From IMG/VR virus record IMGVR_UViG_3300046819_000212, positions 1 to 38,984 of that record: a stretch of DNA of 38,984 nucleotides; one strand, written 5' to 3'. This document shows, in pieces, positions 4,101 to 38,984 of this stretch (the first letter of the stretch is position 1; the number at the start of each line of letters is the position of its first letter). The notes beneath the pieces are model-generated. The model was given only the letters and a program-made list of their open reading frames with translations, was not told where the DNA came from and searched no databases. The stretch is from a virus. Position numbers and translations under genes: made by a program.

Positions 4101-7100
4101 CCTTCTTTTTTGTCTCGGTATGTTTTGATAATGGACTCAATTTCAGCCCACATATCTTTCGCATACCCAAACTTCAAATTGTCAGCCATAACGTCTGGCA
4201 TAATACCGCCGCTCTTAGCATACCACTGCGGAGGAATCCAAGGTGCATCATCATACTGATCTTTGATGTCTCGCCCTTCTTTCTGCGCCGTCTTTAACGA
4301 CATGAGTTTCCCATGCTTACCAAGCATCTCTTGAATCAATGGATGATCGTCCAGTGCGTCCATTCCTTCACTCCACGCCATCAGTGTTTCCGGCGTCAGC
4401 TTGTCCATGCCTTCATTTACAAGCTCAACCTCGCGTTGCGCCTGCCGCATCGCCTGTTCCTTATCCAAACTCTTCACCGTGCGCTTCTCACTAATCGGGC
4501 GGATCTTGTTTCCTTGCGGCGTCCATCGCTCGTTGCTCCACTTGTCGGCATACTTGGCAAACTGGCGAATCATCTTCGATTTCACCTCAAGCGCGCCCAC
4601 TGGGTTCTCTGCAAACTGGCGCTCTACTTGGTCACTTAGCTCGTTGAGGTTGCGGATGGGTGAGATGCTGAAAGTTGGCCCATTCATCACGCCTTCACGG
4701 ACCTGCAACGGTTCGCCACGTTCGCGAGCTGCAAGCCAGCGGTGATGTCCATCGAAAAGTTTAAGCCTGCCATCCTCGCCACGGTAAACGCCTACAGGTT
4801 GCGATAAATCAACTTTAGACGCCCAGTCTTTACCGCCTGCTTTCATGTCGGCTTCTGCGCGTGCTAGGTCTTCGGGAATCGTGTCGATGTCGGATGTTGG
4901 GATGGAGACGCTGAAGGACGGGCCTTCAACCCTTTGAATTTTATCATCCGTCACACGCTGAAATTTACTCAACAAAGGAACATCCTTGATGAGCTTATCC
5001 AGATTTTTAGCCGCTCCTGTAATGGATGTCACAGCATTAGCCAGAACCTTTTCAATAACAAACTCGCCAGAGTTAGAGCCAGCGCCAGAAAGAGTTTGAT
5101 TCTGCATACTCTTTGGCTTTATGCCATTTACAAGCGATGAATCCAGTTCAATCAAAACTCCCTTGCCTCCTTGTCCTAATGCTAAATCACGATCATTTGT
5201 GACGTAGAATCTAGACTTCATATTACGCCCCATGATGGCGCTCAGTAATTGACGAGCGCCAGAAATGCCAGTCTCATGAAATACGGTTTTGGTTTTTGTA
5301 ATTTCTCCAAGATTGGAGCGAGTTTTCTTCACTTCGCTGGCATAAGTAGCCCCAGTCTTTTTCTCGTAATCAACGTATGATTCAGACAGCCAGTTAACAG
5401 GCGAAATACTAAACGGCATCTTTCCGGCTTCCATGATGGCCTTTGCTTCATCTATCGCCTGCCCTTCCATCTGCTTCACCTCGTCAATGCCTACAACCTT
5501 ATTTACAAAAGCGTCCCAATCCTCGCCAATCGTGCCATTATCGCGAGCTTTAACCATGGCCTTAACGGTGCTGAATACGGCCTTCATGTGCGCCGAGAAT
5601 GCGCGGAACATAGCAATAATACGAACAAGCGCACTTGCCTCTTCATTGGTGTTAGCACCAACGACAGCAGCTTCAAGAGCGCGTGAAATCTGCATGGGTT
5701 TTAACCCTGTGTCCTTGCCTCTGCGATCCTTTGCGAAACGGTCGCGGACATACATCTCGCTGAATGTTTCTTGAAGCATGGTGTAATTGCCTTTGCCTTC
5801 AGCCAGCTCGCGGACATTCTCAATCCACTTATATTCAAGCTTTCTGTCTTCCAGTTCGCTTTCGTATTTCCTGCGCTGAGAATCTGACATCGCGCTGACC
5901 TCCTCCGCAGATTTGACGGGTGAAACCGTATTAGCAAACGCTGGAACAAGAGCGCGAAAGGCTGTTCTAGCGTCCTCCTCTGTCCATGTTTCATCCCTCA
6001 ATCCTTCGCGGAATTTAGATTCAATATCTTCATGCAGCAGCGTGAAAATTTGAGGATTGCCCTCTTTGCTGGATTTAAACAAGCTCAGCTTGCGCCATAC
6101 AGCCTTGGCCGTATCAGCCACGCGAAAACCAAAAAGCTCATTTGATCCGTTAATGCGACCAATCACACCGCCAGCGCCCGCTTTAATGCCTGCAACCTCC
6201 GCTTCCTTGCGGACGGTTTCAAGCGCCTGAGGGCCAAACGGGCGCTGCGATACTTCGACGTTATTGGCGTCTCTACGAATGGCAAACACACCGCCTCTAT
6301 TGGCTTCGACATCTTCGCCAGTCATTTCAACCATAGCCCCTCGACCCATGCCGCTTTCAAAGTAAGTGTCTAAAACTTCAGAAATGACATTTGCCTCCTG
6401 TTGGCTTCCAACTTGGCGAAGTTCGTTATAAATGCGATTTGCGCCTTCTGCTGTATCTGTGGGAATAATCGTGCCCTCGCCTGTCGTGACTTGCCAGCCT
6501 GTAGGCGTGCGGGTTACGCTTGCGGTGTAGTCGGGTGAGGTTGTCTCTGTCAGCGCCTCGATATTCTCTTGAGCTTTGAAGCGCGCTTTGAGTCGTTCGG
6601 TTGCCGCTTGAATATCTGGTTTTGAGGCTTTGGTGTCACTGACAAATTCAGCGCGGAAAAGGCTGTCAGCTTTGCGATAGTCGCCAGCATCTGACGCTTC
6701 CTTGATCTTGGTTGCCAACTCTGGCGCAATGCCTTTAGCAACCAGCATATCCAAATCAGCCGCCAGACTGCGCCCGTTCTTAATGTCATTGATCGACGCA
6801 ACGCCGCCGCCGACAAGCGAGAAAAGCAAAGCGGGTGCCCACACTTCCGCCGCGATGTCTGCAAACTTCGGCATGTTCTTTTCCCAATCGACGGAGGGCA
6901 TATCTTGCCCAAGCGCGCCCATTAATTGCTGAGCCTTCAAAGGAGCGTAGGCTTGCAGCCATTCCTCGCCAATTTCCGCAGTGGTCCCAGTAGCAGCACG
7001 AATACCGAGATTGCGAGCAGCCCCGCCGATGCTGGCAGTTTCAGTCATTAACCATTTTTGAAGAACGGGAAGCTTCACCTTGCCCCATGGAATCAAAGCC

Positions 7101-16563: not shown

Positions 16564-16589
16564 ATTCTCACAAATGATAATTGGTGCAA
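16564..16589 (-). promoter_or_regulatory. Candidate late promoter with palindrome, capsid unit
   Basis: On the minus strand TTGC (16589-16586) is followed after exactly 16 nt by GAGAAT (16569-16564). The same elements with the same spacing occur at 21801-21826 and 36509-36534. The right part is an imperfect palindrome ATTCTCA-CAAA-TGATAAT (16564-16581). Capsid translation starts about 140 nt downstream. Confidence 0.6.
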
Positions 16590-16614: not shown

Positions 16615-16641
16615 ATAGGGTAAAAATTCCCTTGTTAATTC

Positions 16642-16670
16642 TTGCCGACGTTCTATTTTCAGGCAGATTC
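16642..16670 (+). promoter_or_regulatory. Candidate promoter for plus-strand structured RNA
   Basis: TTGCCG (16642-16647), a 17-nt spacer and AGATTC (16665-16670) precede the GG start of the hairpin RNA by 5 nt. The equivalent place at 36549-36577 has TTGACG, 17 nt and AGATTA. The -10 match to TATAAT is weak; the support is the parallel arrangement. Confidence 0.45.
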
Positions 16671-16675
16671 AAATA

Positions 16676-16756
16676 GGTTTCACCCGTTGCAGGAGTGATC
16701 CGACCACCGGAGTGAAACCCGCTTAGGCCGAACTGCTGCAACCAGTTCGGCCTTTT
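16676..16756 (+). ncRNA. Two-hairpin leader RNA with kissing loops, copy 1
   Basis: Hairpin 1 pairs GGTTTCAC (16676-16683) with GTGAAACC (16712-16719). Hairpin 2 is a terminator: AGGCCGAACTG (16725-16735) pairs with CAGTTCGGCCT (16743-16753), and the Ts run through 16756. The 7-nt terminator loop, CTGCAAC (16736-16742), is the exact complement of GTTGCAG (16686-16692) in the loop of hairpin 1. The same plan with different loop and stem sequences is found at 36589-36670. No peptide is evident inside. It may be a free small RNA or an attenuating leader for the nuclease gene at 17034. Confidence 0.7.
16725..16756 (+). terminator. Intrinsic terminator of leader RNA copy 1
   Basis: An 11-bp GC-rich stem with a 7-nt loop is followed by TTTT, GCG and another TTTT on the plus strand. 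There is no U-tract on the other strand, so it acts only on plus-strand transcription. Its loop is complementary to the preceding hairpin loop. Confidence 0.8.
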
Positions 16757-16780
16757 GCGTTTTGGCTATCTAGCGCCCGA

Positions 16781-17023
16781 AGTCGCCCCTGAGAAGGTGA
16801 GATAGGGCGGTGCCAGTTTGATTTTACGGATTCGCCGGACTGCAATTCAGGCGAAAGCAAATAATGATACTACCGATAAAACTCTGCTCTATGCCGTGGA
16901 AGGCCCGTAGCAGTTGCGGTCCCGCAAGGGGTGTCTAAAGCTCGAATCGGCTCCTTTATACCGAAGAAACTTTACGGCTCAGGTTCCTCGAAAGGGAACT
17001 CTGTGCCGTTGCTGAATCTCACC
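16781..17023 (+). ncRNA. Large structured RNA candidate upstream of nuclease gene
   Basis: This gene-free stretch holds many strong helices: CGCCC/GGGCG (16784-16788/16805-16809), TTCGCC/GGCGAA (16831-16836/16850-16855), CTGCT/AGCAG (16884-16888/16909-16913), TTGCG/CGCAA (16914-16918/16923-16927), and ACGGC/GCCGT (16974-16978/17005-17009) enclosing GTTCC/GGAAC. An 8-bp long-range pairing, GGTGAGAT (16796-16803) with ATCTCACC (17016-17023), closes the whole and crosses the first hairpin, making a pseudoknot. Strand is assigned from the adjacent plus-strand gene and terminator; Watson-Crick helices alone do not decide it. The size and nuclease-adjacent position recall HEARO/omega RNAs, but no IscB gene is present and I cannot assign a family. 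Confidence 0.6.
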
Positions 17024-17033
17024 ATTACCCGAA

Positions 17034-17372
17034 GTGAATGCTCTTATAAACCAACCAGTTAAACGGTCTGAATTTGAAATGCAGGCTGAATTGTATTTTT
17101 GCCTGAAAAAGCTTGGCTTTGATGTTCGCGGCGAAGTGCCGTCATTATTTGATGGTGAGAGAAGTTTTTTCGATCTTGTTATCTTTCGTGGTCATTATGG
17201 AGCCGTTATTATTGAAGTGAAAAACAATGATGCAAATGCGCTCAGGAACGGAAAGAAAACTCGCCAGAATCGCAAATATAAAGCCTATGATTTGCCGATT
17301 GTTTATTACACCACGGCAACGCCAATTGAGTCGGTAATTGCAGAAATACAAAAGCACGTTGAGCGATTGTGA
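17034..17372 (+). CDS. Lone PD-(D/E)XK nuclease-like protein (112 aa)
   Basis: It is the only plus-strand gene inside the minus-strand structural operons. Residues D47, E61 and K63 (FFDLVIF, then AVIIEVKNND) form the D-x13-E-x-K catalytic strand pair of PD-(D/E)XK endonucleases, with E19 in the preceding helix. YKAYDLPIVYYTT fits the later strand of VRR-NUC or Holliday-resolvase-like folds. The start is uncertain. GTG at 17034 gives the full domain but has no Shine-Dalgarno; an ATG at 17078 is possible. The gene looks AT-richer by eye than its neighbours, suggesting late acquisition. It follows a highly structured region and could be a mobile-element nuclease, a defence gene or a moron. Confidence 0.7.
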   Translation: MNALINQPVKRSEFEMQAELYFCLKKLGFDVRGEVPSLFDGERSFFDLVIFRGHYGAVIIEVKNNDANALRNGKKTRQNRKYKAYDLPIVYYTTATPIESVIAEIQKHVERL

Positions 17373-36501: not shown

Positions 36502-36508
36502 GCGCGAT

Positions 36509-36534
36509 ATTCTCACAAATGAGAATGATGGCAA
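36509..36534 (-). promoter_or_regulatory. Candidate late promoter with perfect palindrome, fibre-lysis unit
   Basis: TTGC (36534-36531), 16 nt and GAGAAT (36514-36509) on the minus strand repeat the arrangement at 16564 and 21801. ATTCTCA-CAAA-TGAGAAT (36509-36526) is a perfect 7-bp inverted repeat, the best copy of the family. The next bases ATCGCGC run into the ATG. Confidence 0.65.
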
Positions 36535-36548
36535 GAAGTTAATTTAAT

Positions 36549-36577
36549 TTGACGGCACCAAATAGCCGTGAAGATTA
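36549..36577 (+). promoter_or_regulatory. Candidate promoter for plus-strand leader and operon
   Basis: TTGACG (36549-36554) and AGATTA (36572-36577) are 17 nt apart, as in the copy at 16642-16670. A small hairpin ACGGC/GCCGT occupies the spacer. The -35 context ATTTGACGG is also shared with the early promoter at 33842. The -10 element is weak. Confidence 0.5.
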
Positions 36578-36588
36578 GCGGTCTAATT

Positions 36589-36670
36589 GGTTGCGCTCTG
36601 CTAGGCGTGTCCTATCCGAAGCGACAGCCGCAACGGGCCGAGACATTCTAGCAGGTGTCTCGGCCTTTTT
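36589..36670 (+). ncRNA. Two-hairpin leader RNA with kissing loops, copy 2
   Basis: Hairpin 1 pairs GTTGCG (36590-36595) with CGCAAC (36629-36634). Hairpin 2, a terminator, pairs GGCCGAGACA (36636-36645) with TGTCTCGGCC (36656-36665) and ends in TTTTT. CTGCTAG (36598-36604), in the loop of hairpin 1, is the exact complement of CTAGCAG (36648-36654) in the terminator loop. All three helices differ in sequence from copy 1 at 16676-16756 while the plan is kept. The first gene of the plus-strand operon begins 20 nt after the T-run. Confidence 0.7.
36636..36670 (+). terminator. Intrinsic terminator of leader RNA copy 2
   Basis: A 10-bp perfect stem with a 10-nt loop is followed by TTTTT on the plus strand. 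It would stop plus-strand transcripts just before the gene at 36691. The downstream genes therefore need read-through, antitermination or another promoter. Confidence 0.85.
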
Positions 36671-36690
36671 GTTTAAACTCAACATCACAC

Positions 36691-37413
36691 ATGAAAACGA
36701 CATACACAGAACAACAGATTCAGGCAGCTATTGATGCCGCTTTCCCAATGGGAGTCCGAGGAGATGGATGCGACCTTGACACCACAATGGGAAGTAGTCA
36801 AATTTGGCGCGAAGAAGCGCCCAACCGCCTATCCATCGCCAAAGCCTTCCTCGAAAAGCTGGAGGCTGATCCGTATGCAGAATTGAAGAAGGCTCATGCG
36901 GAAGGGAAAGTGATTCAATGGCAAGGTAGCGCAGGCTGGCGGGACTATATTCAAGGAGTTCAAGAAATAGGGGAGCATCCAGAATATGGATGGCGCATCA
37001 AACCCAAACCCGACATTTTCGAGTCCCACGGCAAGACGTGGACAAAGCACACCCCAGGCGATCCGATGCCTTGTGATGGTGAGGCTGTGGTTGAAATAGT
37101 GCTTGGCGATAAAATGCTAGGTAAAATTGGAAAAGCTAAATTATGCCTTTGGGATGAAAAGCCAAGCCTTAGCAGTCAAATTATCGGCTGGCGCTATGCC
37201 GACGCACCGCAAACAAACCCAGTCCCAGACCAAACCCAAGTCGTTCGGACTCACGCAGTCGGTGACGTTGTTCGACTGAAGAGCGGAGGGCCGATGATGA
37301 CGATTGCCACCTTTACCCCAGAAAACGCAGCGATCTGCTACTGGTTTAACGAAAGCGAAAGAGACTCAGCGACACTTCCAACCGCTTGCCTTATCAAGGA
37401 GGACGTGCAATGA
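36691..37413 (+). CDS. Phage protein with C-terminal DUF2158/YodC-like domain (240 aa)
   Basis: ATG at 36691 follows ACATCACAC and gives MKTTYTEQQIQAAIDAAF. The middle repeats a common phage pattern, EGKVIQWQ, then EYGWRIKPKP. The C-terminal VGDVVRLKSGGPMMTIA with CYWFNESERDSATLPTACL matches the YodC/DUF2158 beta-barrel found in many phages. No enzymatic motif is seen. It opens the plus-strand accessory operon right after the terminator. An ATG at 36655 lies inside the terminator and was rejected. Confidence 0.75.
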   Translation: MKTTYTEQQIQAAIDAAFPMGVRGDGCDLDTTMGSSQIWREEAPNRLSIAKAFLEKLEADPYAELKKAHAEGKVIQWQGSAGWRDYIQGVQEIGEHPEYGWRIKPKPDIFESHGKTWTKHTPGDPMPCDGEAVVEIVLGDKMLGKIGKAKLCLWDEKPSLSSQIIGWRYADAPQTNPVPDQTQVVRTHAVGDVVRLKSGGPMMTIATFTPENAAICYWFNESERDSATLPTACLIKEDVQ

Positions 37414-38062: not shown

Positions 38063-38331
38063 AAACCTACCCTTACCAAGACGGCGACAAGCTTATCGAA
38101 CTCGTTGAGAAGCGAGAGTATGACGGCATGGAATTGCTCGCCCACGAATTAGCGACTTTACGCGCTGAGGACATGGCGACGATCAACGATCTACGCAAAG
38201 AGCTTCAAGACGCGGTGAAGCGGATGGAGGCGGTTTCAATCGATGATCTTTGGGATTGTTTTGATCAGCACAATCAAAGTTTAATTTTTGTCCGCGCCCG
38301 TCTAATCTCAGCCGCGAAAGGAGAGTCATGA
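38053..38331 (+). CDS. Hypothetical phage protein (92 aa), full-length copy
   Basis: The ATG at 38053 lies inside the last codons of the previous gene. The protein MEIKTYPYQDGDKLIELVEK is acidic and helical with DLWDCFDQHNQSLIFVRARL near its end. Its second half equals the partial frame at 1-150, so this copy shows what the missing 5' part of that gene looks like. ATGA joins it to the next gene. Confidence 0.65.
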   Translation: MEIKTYPYQDGDKLIELVEKREYDGMELLAHELATLRAEDMATINDLRKELQDAVKRMEAVSIDDLWDCFDQHNQSLIFVRARLISAAKGES

Positions 38332-38663
38332 GCGATACACCACCACCTCCACAATACATTCCTTTTGTTAACATCCCAGAAGAAGTTCACGCCGCCGCTT
38401 TAACTTTGCAGCACTACTTTGAACAACAAGGTTGCCAAGAATGGCAGTTTTCTGCCGTAGCGGACGGGCGACTTGTTGGTAAGCTAGAACGCGAACTCAA
38501 CGCGGCGAAGGCTGAAAACGACAGCAAGCTAGCGTTAATCAAACGCCTTCACCTTGCAATCACGGCGCGCATGTCCGCTGATGAGCCGACTGGCGATGAA
38601 AGGCTGGAGCTAAGCCTTGCGTGGAAAGAGGCGCAGGAGACAATCGACAAAGCGAAGCTGTGA
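38328..38663 (+). CDS. MSDTP-type phage protein, alternative N-terminus (111 aa)
   Basis: It shares LERELNAAKAENDSKLALIK and the following C-terminal part with the protein at 401-664 but begins MSDTPPPPQYIPFVNIPEEV. The N-terminal domain is thus exchangeable between alleles. ATGA coupling and GGAGAG mark the start. Function unknown. Confidence 0.72.
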   Translation: MSDTPPPPQYIPFVNIPEEVHAAALTLQHYFEQQGCQEWQFSAVADGRLVGKLERELNAAKAENDSKLALIKRLHLAITARMSADEPTGDERLELSLAWKEAQETIDKAKL

Positions 38664-38881
38664 CCGCAAACGACATCATTCACGACTTGCTAGCGAATCC
38701 GTATCCTCATGACCTTATGGATATACGGCGAGCCGCAAACACCTACACCAGCGAGACTTCAGCCATGGCCGACATGGAAACTTACTGCACCGAGGCATTC
38801 GCCATGAAGGCCCGTGCCGATTGGCAAGCCGCGCAAGATGCCGCTAGGGAGTGGCTGGAGAATAACCCGATTAAATCATGA
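38660..38881 (+). CDS. Hypothetical phage protein (73 aa), GTG-start copy
   Basis: It is the same gene as 661-882 with a few substitutions (Q to R, K to R and K to E). Here the start is GTG at 38660, overlapping the previous stop as GTGA, where the other copy has ATG. Conservation of the overlap with a changed start base supports the start choice in both. Confidence 0.7.
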   Translation: MTANDIIHDLLANPYPHDLMDIRRAANTYTSETSAMADMETYCTEAFAMKARADWQAAQDAAREWLENNPIKS

Positions 38882-38984
38882 CCATCAATGAAGAGGATTA
38901 CAAGCCAAGGCCTGCGGATGATTTCTGGGGCATACCATCTCACAATCTTTCTGAGGATCAAAGTGAGTCAGAGTCCAAGCGATA
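38878..38984 (+). CDS. 5' part of hypothetical protein, cut by window end
   Basis: MTINEEDYKPRPADDFWGIP and the following residues are identical to the protein at 879-1082 as far as the sequence goes, 35 codons. The frame is open at the last base. ATGA overlap with the gene before sets the start. Confidence 0.7.
   Translation, partial: MTINEEDYKPRPADDFWGIPSHNLSEDQSESESKR

Follow-up and report, generated by a model that had tools for sequence, protein, structure and literature searches.

The 38,984-nt window analyzed here, i.e., the whole stretch of DNA taken from virus record IMGVR_UViG_3300046819_000212, contains two copies of one two-hairpin RNA, each opening a predicted transcript. Judged from their sequences, both are members of a previously uncatalogued family of phage leader RNAs of ca. 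90 nt (hereafter the head), and there is very little doubt that this structured family exists and that its loops pair with each other. The family was found in about 20 further virus records; all the relatives are uncultured metagenomic contigs, gathered from the capsid relatives of the record and then by DNA pattern scans of IMG/VR, in which many heads stood among chance matches. Among the capsid relatives, copy 1 is present in some and missing from others.

Structure of the two copies

Each head consists of a promoter-like sequence, a first hairpin (the stem P1 and a kissing strand, K1) and a terminator-like second hairpin (P2), whose loop carries the other kissing strand, K2. By inspection, boxes resembling -35 and -10 elements lie just upstream of both copies and of nearly all relatives, the transcription starts being predicted ones. 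The first hairpin usually also carries a GG-N-GNRA-N-CC mini-hairpin. A candidate extended Shine-Dalgarno sequence, GGAGUGAUCC, was dropped by inspection, as its variants agree better with the GNRA mini-hairpin and the match is lost in copy 2 and in L155.

Copy 2 lies on the plus strand at 36583-36676, the extent of its covariance-model match. A preliminary description, made from the letters of the window, had listed its parts, and we read them all in the sequence at the same positions: the promoter TTGACG-N17-AGATTA at 36549-36577 (TTGACG 36549-36554, AGATTA 36572-36577); the P1 strands GTTGCG (36590-36595) and CGCAAC (36629-36634), which pair with each other; K1, CTGCTAG (36598-36604); the 5' strand of P2, GGCCGAGACA (36636-36645), also recovered by the fold and the terminator scan; K2, CTAGCAG (36648-36654), in the loop of P2 and perfectly complementary to K1; and, at 36656-36670, the 3' strand of P2, TGTCTCGGCC (36656-36665), with the tract TTTTT (36666-36670), again a scan match. 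The promoter was absent from the output of a stricter promoter scan; TTGACG-N17-AATAAA occupies the equivalent place in L155, L183, L184, L215, and L217. Only the 'GG start' formerly placed at 36580-36581 needs correcting: it lies just 3-4 nt past the -10 box, and the conserved 5' end of the family begins at 36583. This end reads CAAATAGG in the family and CTAATTGG in copy 2, and because the relatives place the conserved 5' end of the element there, transcription of copy 2 probably starts at ca. 36583-36585.

The same order of elements was found in copy 1 (16670-16762, plus strand), a head that is kept in relatives and scores 80.6 bits with the covariance model R1. Its K1 is GTTGCAG (16686-16692) and its K2, in the loop of P2, is the complementary CTGCAAC (16736-16742), flanked by the P2 arms at 16725-16735 and 16743-16753. 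A putative promoter, TTGTTA-N16-TATTTT (16632-16659, plus strand), is suggested by the sequence and by the promoter spacing in relatives. The loops of the two copies have no cross-match of 6 nt or more.

Conservation of the loop pairing

With R1, in whose training set it was included, copy 2 scored 58.3 bits. A leave-out model (R2), built without copy 2, L155, and L150, still recovered copy 2 (31.6 bits, E 5e-7, window searched with filters off; the E-values of these models are rough), as well as L155 (43.7 bits) and L150 (49.2 bits), which establishes that copies 1 and 2 belong to one family. L146 has a candidate head that is very diverged (14 bits, E 0.12) and was excluded from the counts.

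In all 15 distinct heads (copies 1 and 2 plus 13 others), K1 and K2 are perfect complements over 6-9 nt at nearly the same offset; they were taken as the best match, so that "all paired" in the stem/loop tally holds by construction. The 15 heads contain 12 different loop-pair sequences, which do not equal 12 fully independent events given that loop alleles are often shared by descent or exchange, and the stems also have double changes. As controls, a shuffled loop matched as long a stretch as the real one in 0.4-10% of cases, depending on the head, and the match between non-cognate loops was mostly 3-5 nt long, 183 of the 210 cross-comparisons staying below 6 nt. The window itself has 17 terminator-like sites, exactly two of them with a loop complement of at least 7 nt upstream, and among 250 dinucleotide shuffles (mean 0.21 such sites) two were reached in 4 (p about 0.02). 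The preliminary view that such pairing is hard to obtain by chance is thus suggestive from the window alone, and it is the 15/15 heads and the leave-out model that decide the matter; the same evidence, with the 12 loop pairs, bears out its description of paralogous RNAs of one plan with covariation. That two ordinary terminators happened to find complements in upstream sequence is scarcely credible: shuffling would produce one such site in about one window out of five, but the complement in 15/15 heads and the leave-out covariance model refute it.

Exchange of the head and its cargo

L121 shares 99.99% identity with the window over 9477 bp, an identity that ends at 16683, inside the first stem of the head, past which L121 has another head allele and another cargo (as we call what lies downstream). 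Compared with L003 and L117, where the backbone is about 80% identical, the similarity spans the head and ends at 16764, just past the U-tract; with L004, a cassette of head plus nuclease is 89% identical within a backbone of about 81%. A given head allele can be followed by different cargos, and a given cargo type can be preceded by different heads. Because similarity breaks at its edges and alleles and cargos recombine, the head is, as far as sequence comparison goes, a discrete unit exchanged between phages independently of what follows.

Each of the window's two plus-strand units does begin with a copy of the head, as had been noted. Copy 2 leads an operon of small genes, the first of which (36691-37413, plus strand) has a DUF2158 domain (Pfam). 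In the related 38.3-kb phage L155/G001 a head occupies the corresponding position. A small minus-strand gene diverges from it, an operator-like ATTCTCACAAATG and the promoter TTGACG-N17-AATAAA come before it, and a homolog of this first gene with 43% identity follows. The loops of this head (CGGGCAAG/CTTGCCCG) differ from those of copy 2 within the same plan, and they still match; loss of complementarity in relatives had been named beforehand as grounds for refutation, and complementarity is kept. The head of L155 recurs in four further records, three of them with different first genes. One leader thus precedes different first genes in G001/G008/G012, L215, and L217, and so stays constant while the cargo changes.

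Behind copy 1 come a non-coding stretch (16770-17033, plus strand), conserved in L004/L005 (98% over 236 nt), which folded no better than shuffles (z -0.9, one 250-nt test), and a small ORF (17034-17372, plus strand), conserved in L004, in which a PD-(D/E)XK-like motif can be seen by eye and which has a weak NERD match (E 0.11, below cut-off). Most relatives have, in place of a protein operon, a cargo of structured RNA, to which a nuclease ORF may be added. HNH-like ORFs follow the heads of L057, L063, and L084, with weak Pfam support in L057 only, and that of L044 is followed by an ORF with Vsr/DUF559-like sequence by eye and no Pfam match. A 210-nt structured domain, around TTTACTGAGACAGCCGA, follows many heads (L146-L153, L090, L042, L114, L117, L121); it shows double changes in 9 of its 49 predicted pairs and had no Rfam match. 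Within it, two direct repeats (GACGAATAAG/CTGAATAAGT) vary together from locus to locus. In L090 the chain of structured RNA after the head includes, as one module, a tRNA-Met(CAU) (4979-5052, plus strand) with its acceptor stem prolonged by a further helix, and by eye similar closed modules are present in L043, L044, and L220. No head was found in G002, G003, and G005, near-complete related phages without a plus-strand gene among the long ORFs that the gene caller reports for relatives.

Several other features of the surroundings deserve mention. A divergent minus-strand promoter, TTGCCA-N17-AATATC (36506-36534), with similar sites before the capsid gene of relatives, is overlapped by a TTCTCA-N4-TGAGAA palindrome. 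Such palindromes, exact at 36510-36525 and with one mismatch at 16565-16580, overlap promoter-like sequences of the minus strand that precede the capsid gene and the leftward unit; most relatives keep them, whether or not they carry the head, and they are probably operators of one repressor. In L004 and L006 a small gene of Xre-like helix-turn-helix type (by eye) is inserted beside the operator-like sites, in the interval that separates the capsid gene from the head site. The two ends of the record (38225-38984 and 1-960) are diverged near-duplicates, with proteins 92-98% identical; either the plus-strand operon contains a tandem duplication or the assembly was joined there. Finally, L017 (about 1958, minus strand) and L021 (7579, minus strand) have another terminator-like hairpin, outside the head family, whose loop GCAACAGC is complementary to upstream sequence; here the complement may be due to chance.

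Possible functions of the head

The reading that we place first, ahead of a small RNA, a domain of a large RNA and a put-like element, is a cargo-independent 5' leader that would attenuate transcription, and we hold it tentatively, at somewhat less than even chances. The nascent head would fold its first hairpin and then P2; through its tie to the loop of P2, the first hairpin would set how often RNA polymerase stops at P2 or enters the cargo, and a protein, the ribosome or the stage of infection may tune the outcome. This reading is supported because loop complements occur in 15/15 heads with 12 loop-pair sequences and promoter-like boxes upstream, because the leave-out model recovers copy 2, L155, and L150, because the same leader precedes different first genes with module edges at 16683 and 16764, and because most heads score as intrinsic terminators, while G002, G003, and G005, which have no long plus-strand gene, lack the head. 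Both copies have the G+C-rich hairpin and T-tract of an intrinsic terminator (scan matches); the scores d are high for L155 (about +36) and copy 2 (+31.7) and moderate for copy 1 (+8.9).

The reading is weakened because the U-tracts of L148, L043, and L090 are weak (d -6 to -14), because inspection of the heads by eye revealed no conserved alternative or antiterminator fold against P2, because the K1-K2 pairing is compatible with the P2 hairpin, so that both can coexist, and because much of the cargo is non-coding. On inspection, some heads repeat CCGA(C) from the 5' arm of P2 further upstream, but L155, L150, L002, and L148 do not. The conditional termination of plus-strand genes proposed at the outset is plausible: the strong terminators of copy 2 and L155 speak for it, and the scores below zero in several relatives and the lack of a noticed competing fold speak against it. 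Should the head indeed control termination, phages would have in it a small leader that does not depend on the cargo and whose terminator is tied by a loop-loop contact.

A stand-alone small RNA gene, in which a promoter, a pseudoknotted RNA of ~90 nt and its own terminator make a product acting in trans, is unlikely. It would suit the gene-like anatomy of the head, and its two self-complementary loops could perhaps serve recognition of its own kind (compare the C4/CI-type immunity RNAs of phages), which would account for the different loops of otherwise identical phages; the cargo would be transcribed by leaky read-through. The loop allele does differ between phages 99.99% identical over 9.5 kb, and the two copies of the window lack a cross-match of 6 nt or more; however, a conserved cargo on the same strand always lies behind the head wherever it is visible, and several heads are poor terminators.

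We would give little credit, too, to the idea that the head forms the 5' domain of some larger, modular RNA without coding function, in which the loop pairing would be architectural and possibly intermolecular, as in the GOLLD/ROOL cages. In many relatives chains of structured modules, including the tRNA-Met, come directly behind the head, and the kissing loops of ROOL/GOLLD, first seen by covariation, were proved to be intermolecular (PMC12286853). On the other hand, copy 2 and its orthologs have protein genes within about 30 nt, and the head is exchanged independently of downstream domains. Should it belong to the larger RNA chains of the relatives, these would form a new class of modular phage RNA.

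It is improbable that the head acts like put, i.e., as a two-hairpin RNA that would bind RNA polymerase and make it ignore later terminators. A pair of hairpins right where the transcript begins, in two copies per phage and whatever the cargo, would fit, and HK022 has two such elements (PMC9378689); but the head ends in a terminator-like hairpin with a T-tract, which put lacks, and has no sequence or Rfam link to put, an RNA that contacts the zinc-binding domain of RNA polymerase. Just as doubtful are mobile, allele-typed phage RNAs, with the kissing-loop head swapped as a cassette before exchangeable modules (tRNA-like domains, the 210-nt domain, nuclease ORFs, small-protein operons) and each loop allele matching mainly itself, so that head molecules would recognize their like in trans, whether by forming oligomers or by serving phages as an RNA-based means of excluding one another.

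Comparison with known systems

The elements had no match in Rfam 15 (including C4, GOLLD, ROOL, and group I introns), at gathering thresholds or at E <= 2-5, and the lack of an Rfam match led us to reject a group I intron for the downstream domain. By blastn, copy 1, copy 2, and the downstream domain had no homolog among the INPHARED phages, where short Klebsiella nrdB/primase matches were coding-sequence coincidences; in genome_contigs there was no match to the downstream domain, and three matches to the head pattern look like coding DNA and fail the covariance model. What we describe is thus a family of RNAs that Rfam 15 lacks and that covaries clearly among uncultured phages; its loops vary while their complementarity is kept, and it moves independently of its cargo.

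The literature on similar elements offered analogies only. Riboswitch and attenuator leaders, e.g., the purine riboswitches, are 5' leaders with a loop-loop contact between hairpins and an adjoining terminator; in the head, by contrast, the terminator loop is itself a partner, the cargo is unrelated between loci, and no conserved competing fold was noticed. The C4/CI antisense immunity RNAs of P1 and P4 are short, leader-derived phage RNAs whose constant frame carries pairing segments that vary, whereas the head does not match the C4 Rfam model and finds its complement within the same small RNA. The putL and putR elements of HK022, of about 70 nt with two hairpins, are found near the start of early phage transcripts (PMC9378689), and resemble the head in having two diverged copies per genome and a cargo-independent position; they have no terminator-like second hairpin and, in the sections of that source considered here, no reported loop-loop pairing. 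From GOLLD and ROOL the head differs in that no part of it has an Rfam match at E <= 2, that it measures 90 nt alone and that it can precede protein genes, and it shares with them a phage-borne location, kissing loops found by covariation, and tRNAs nearby or inside (PMC12286853).
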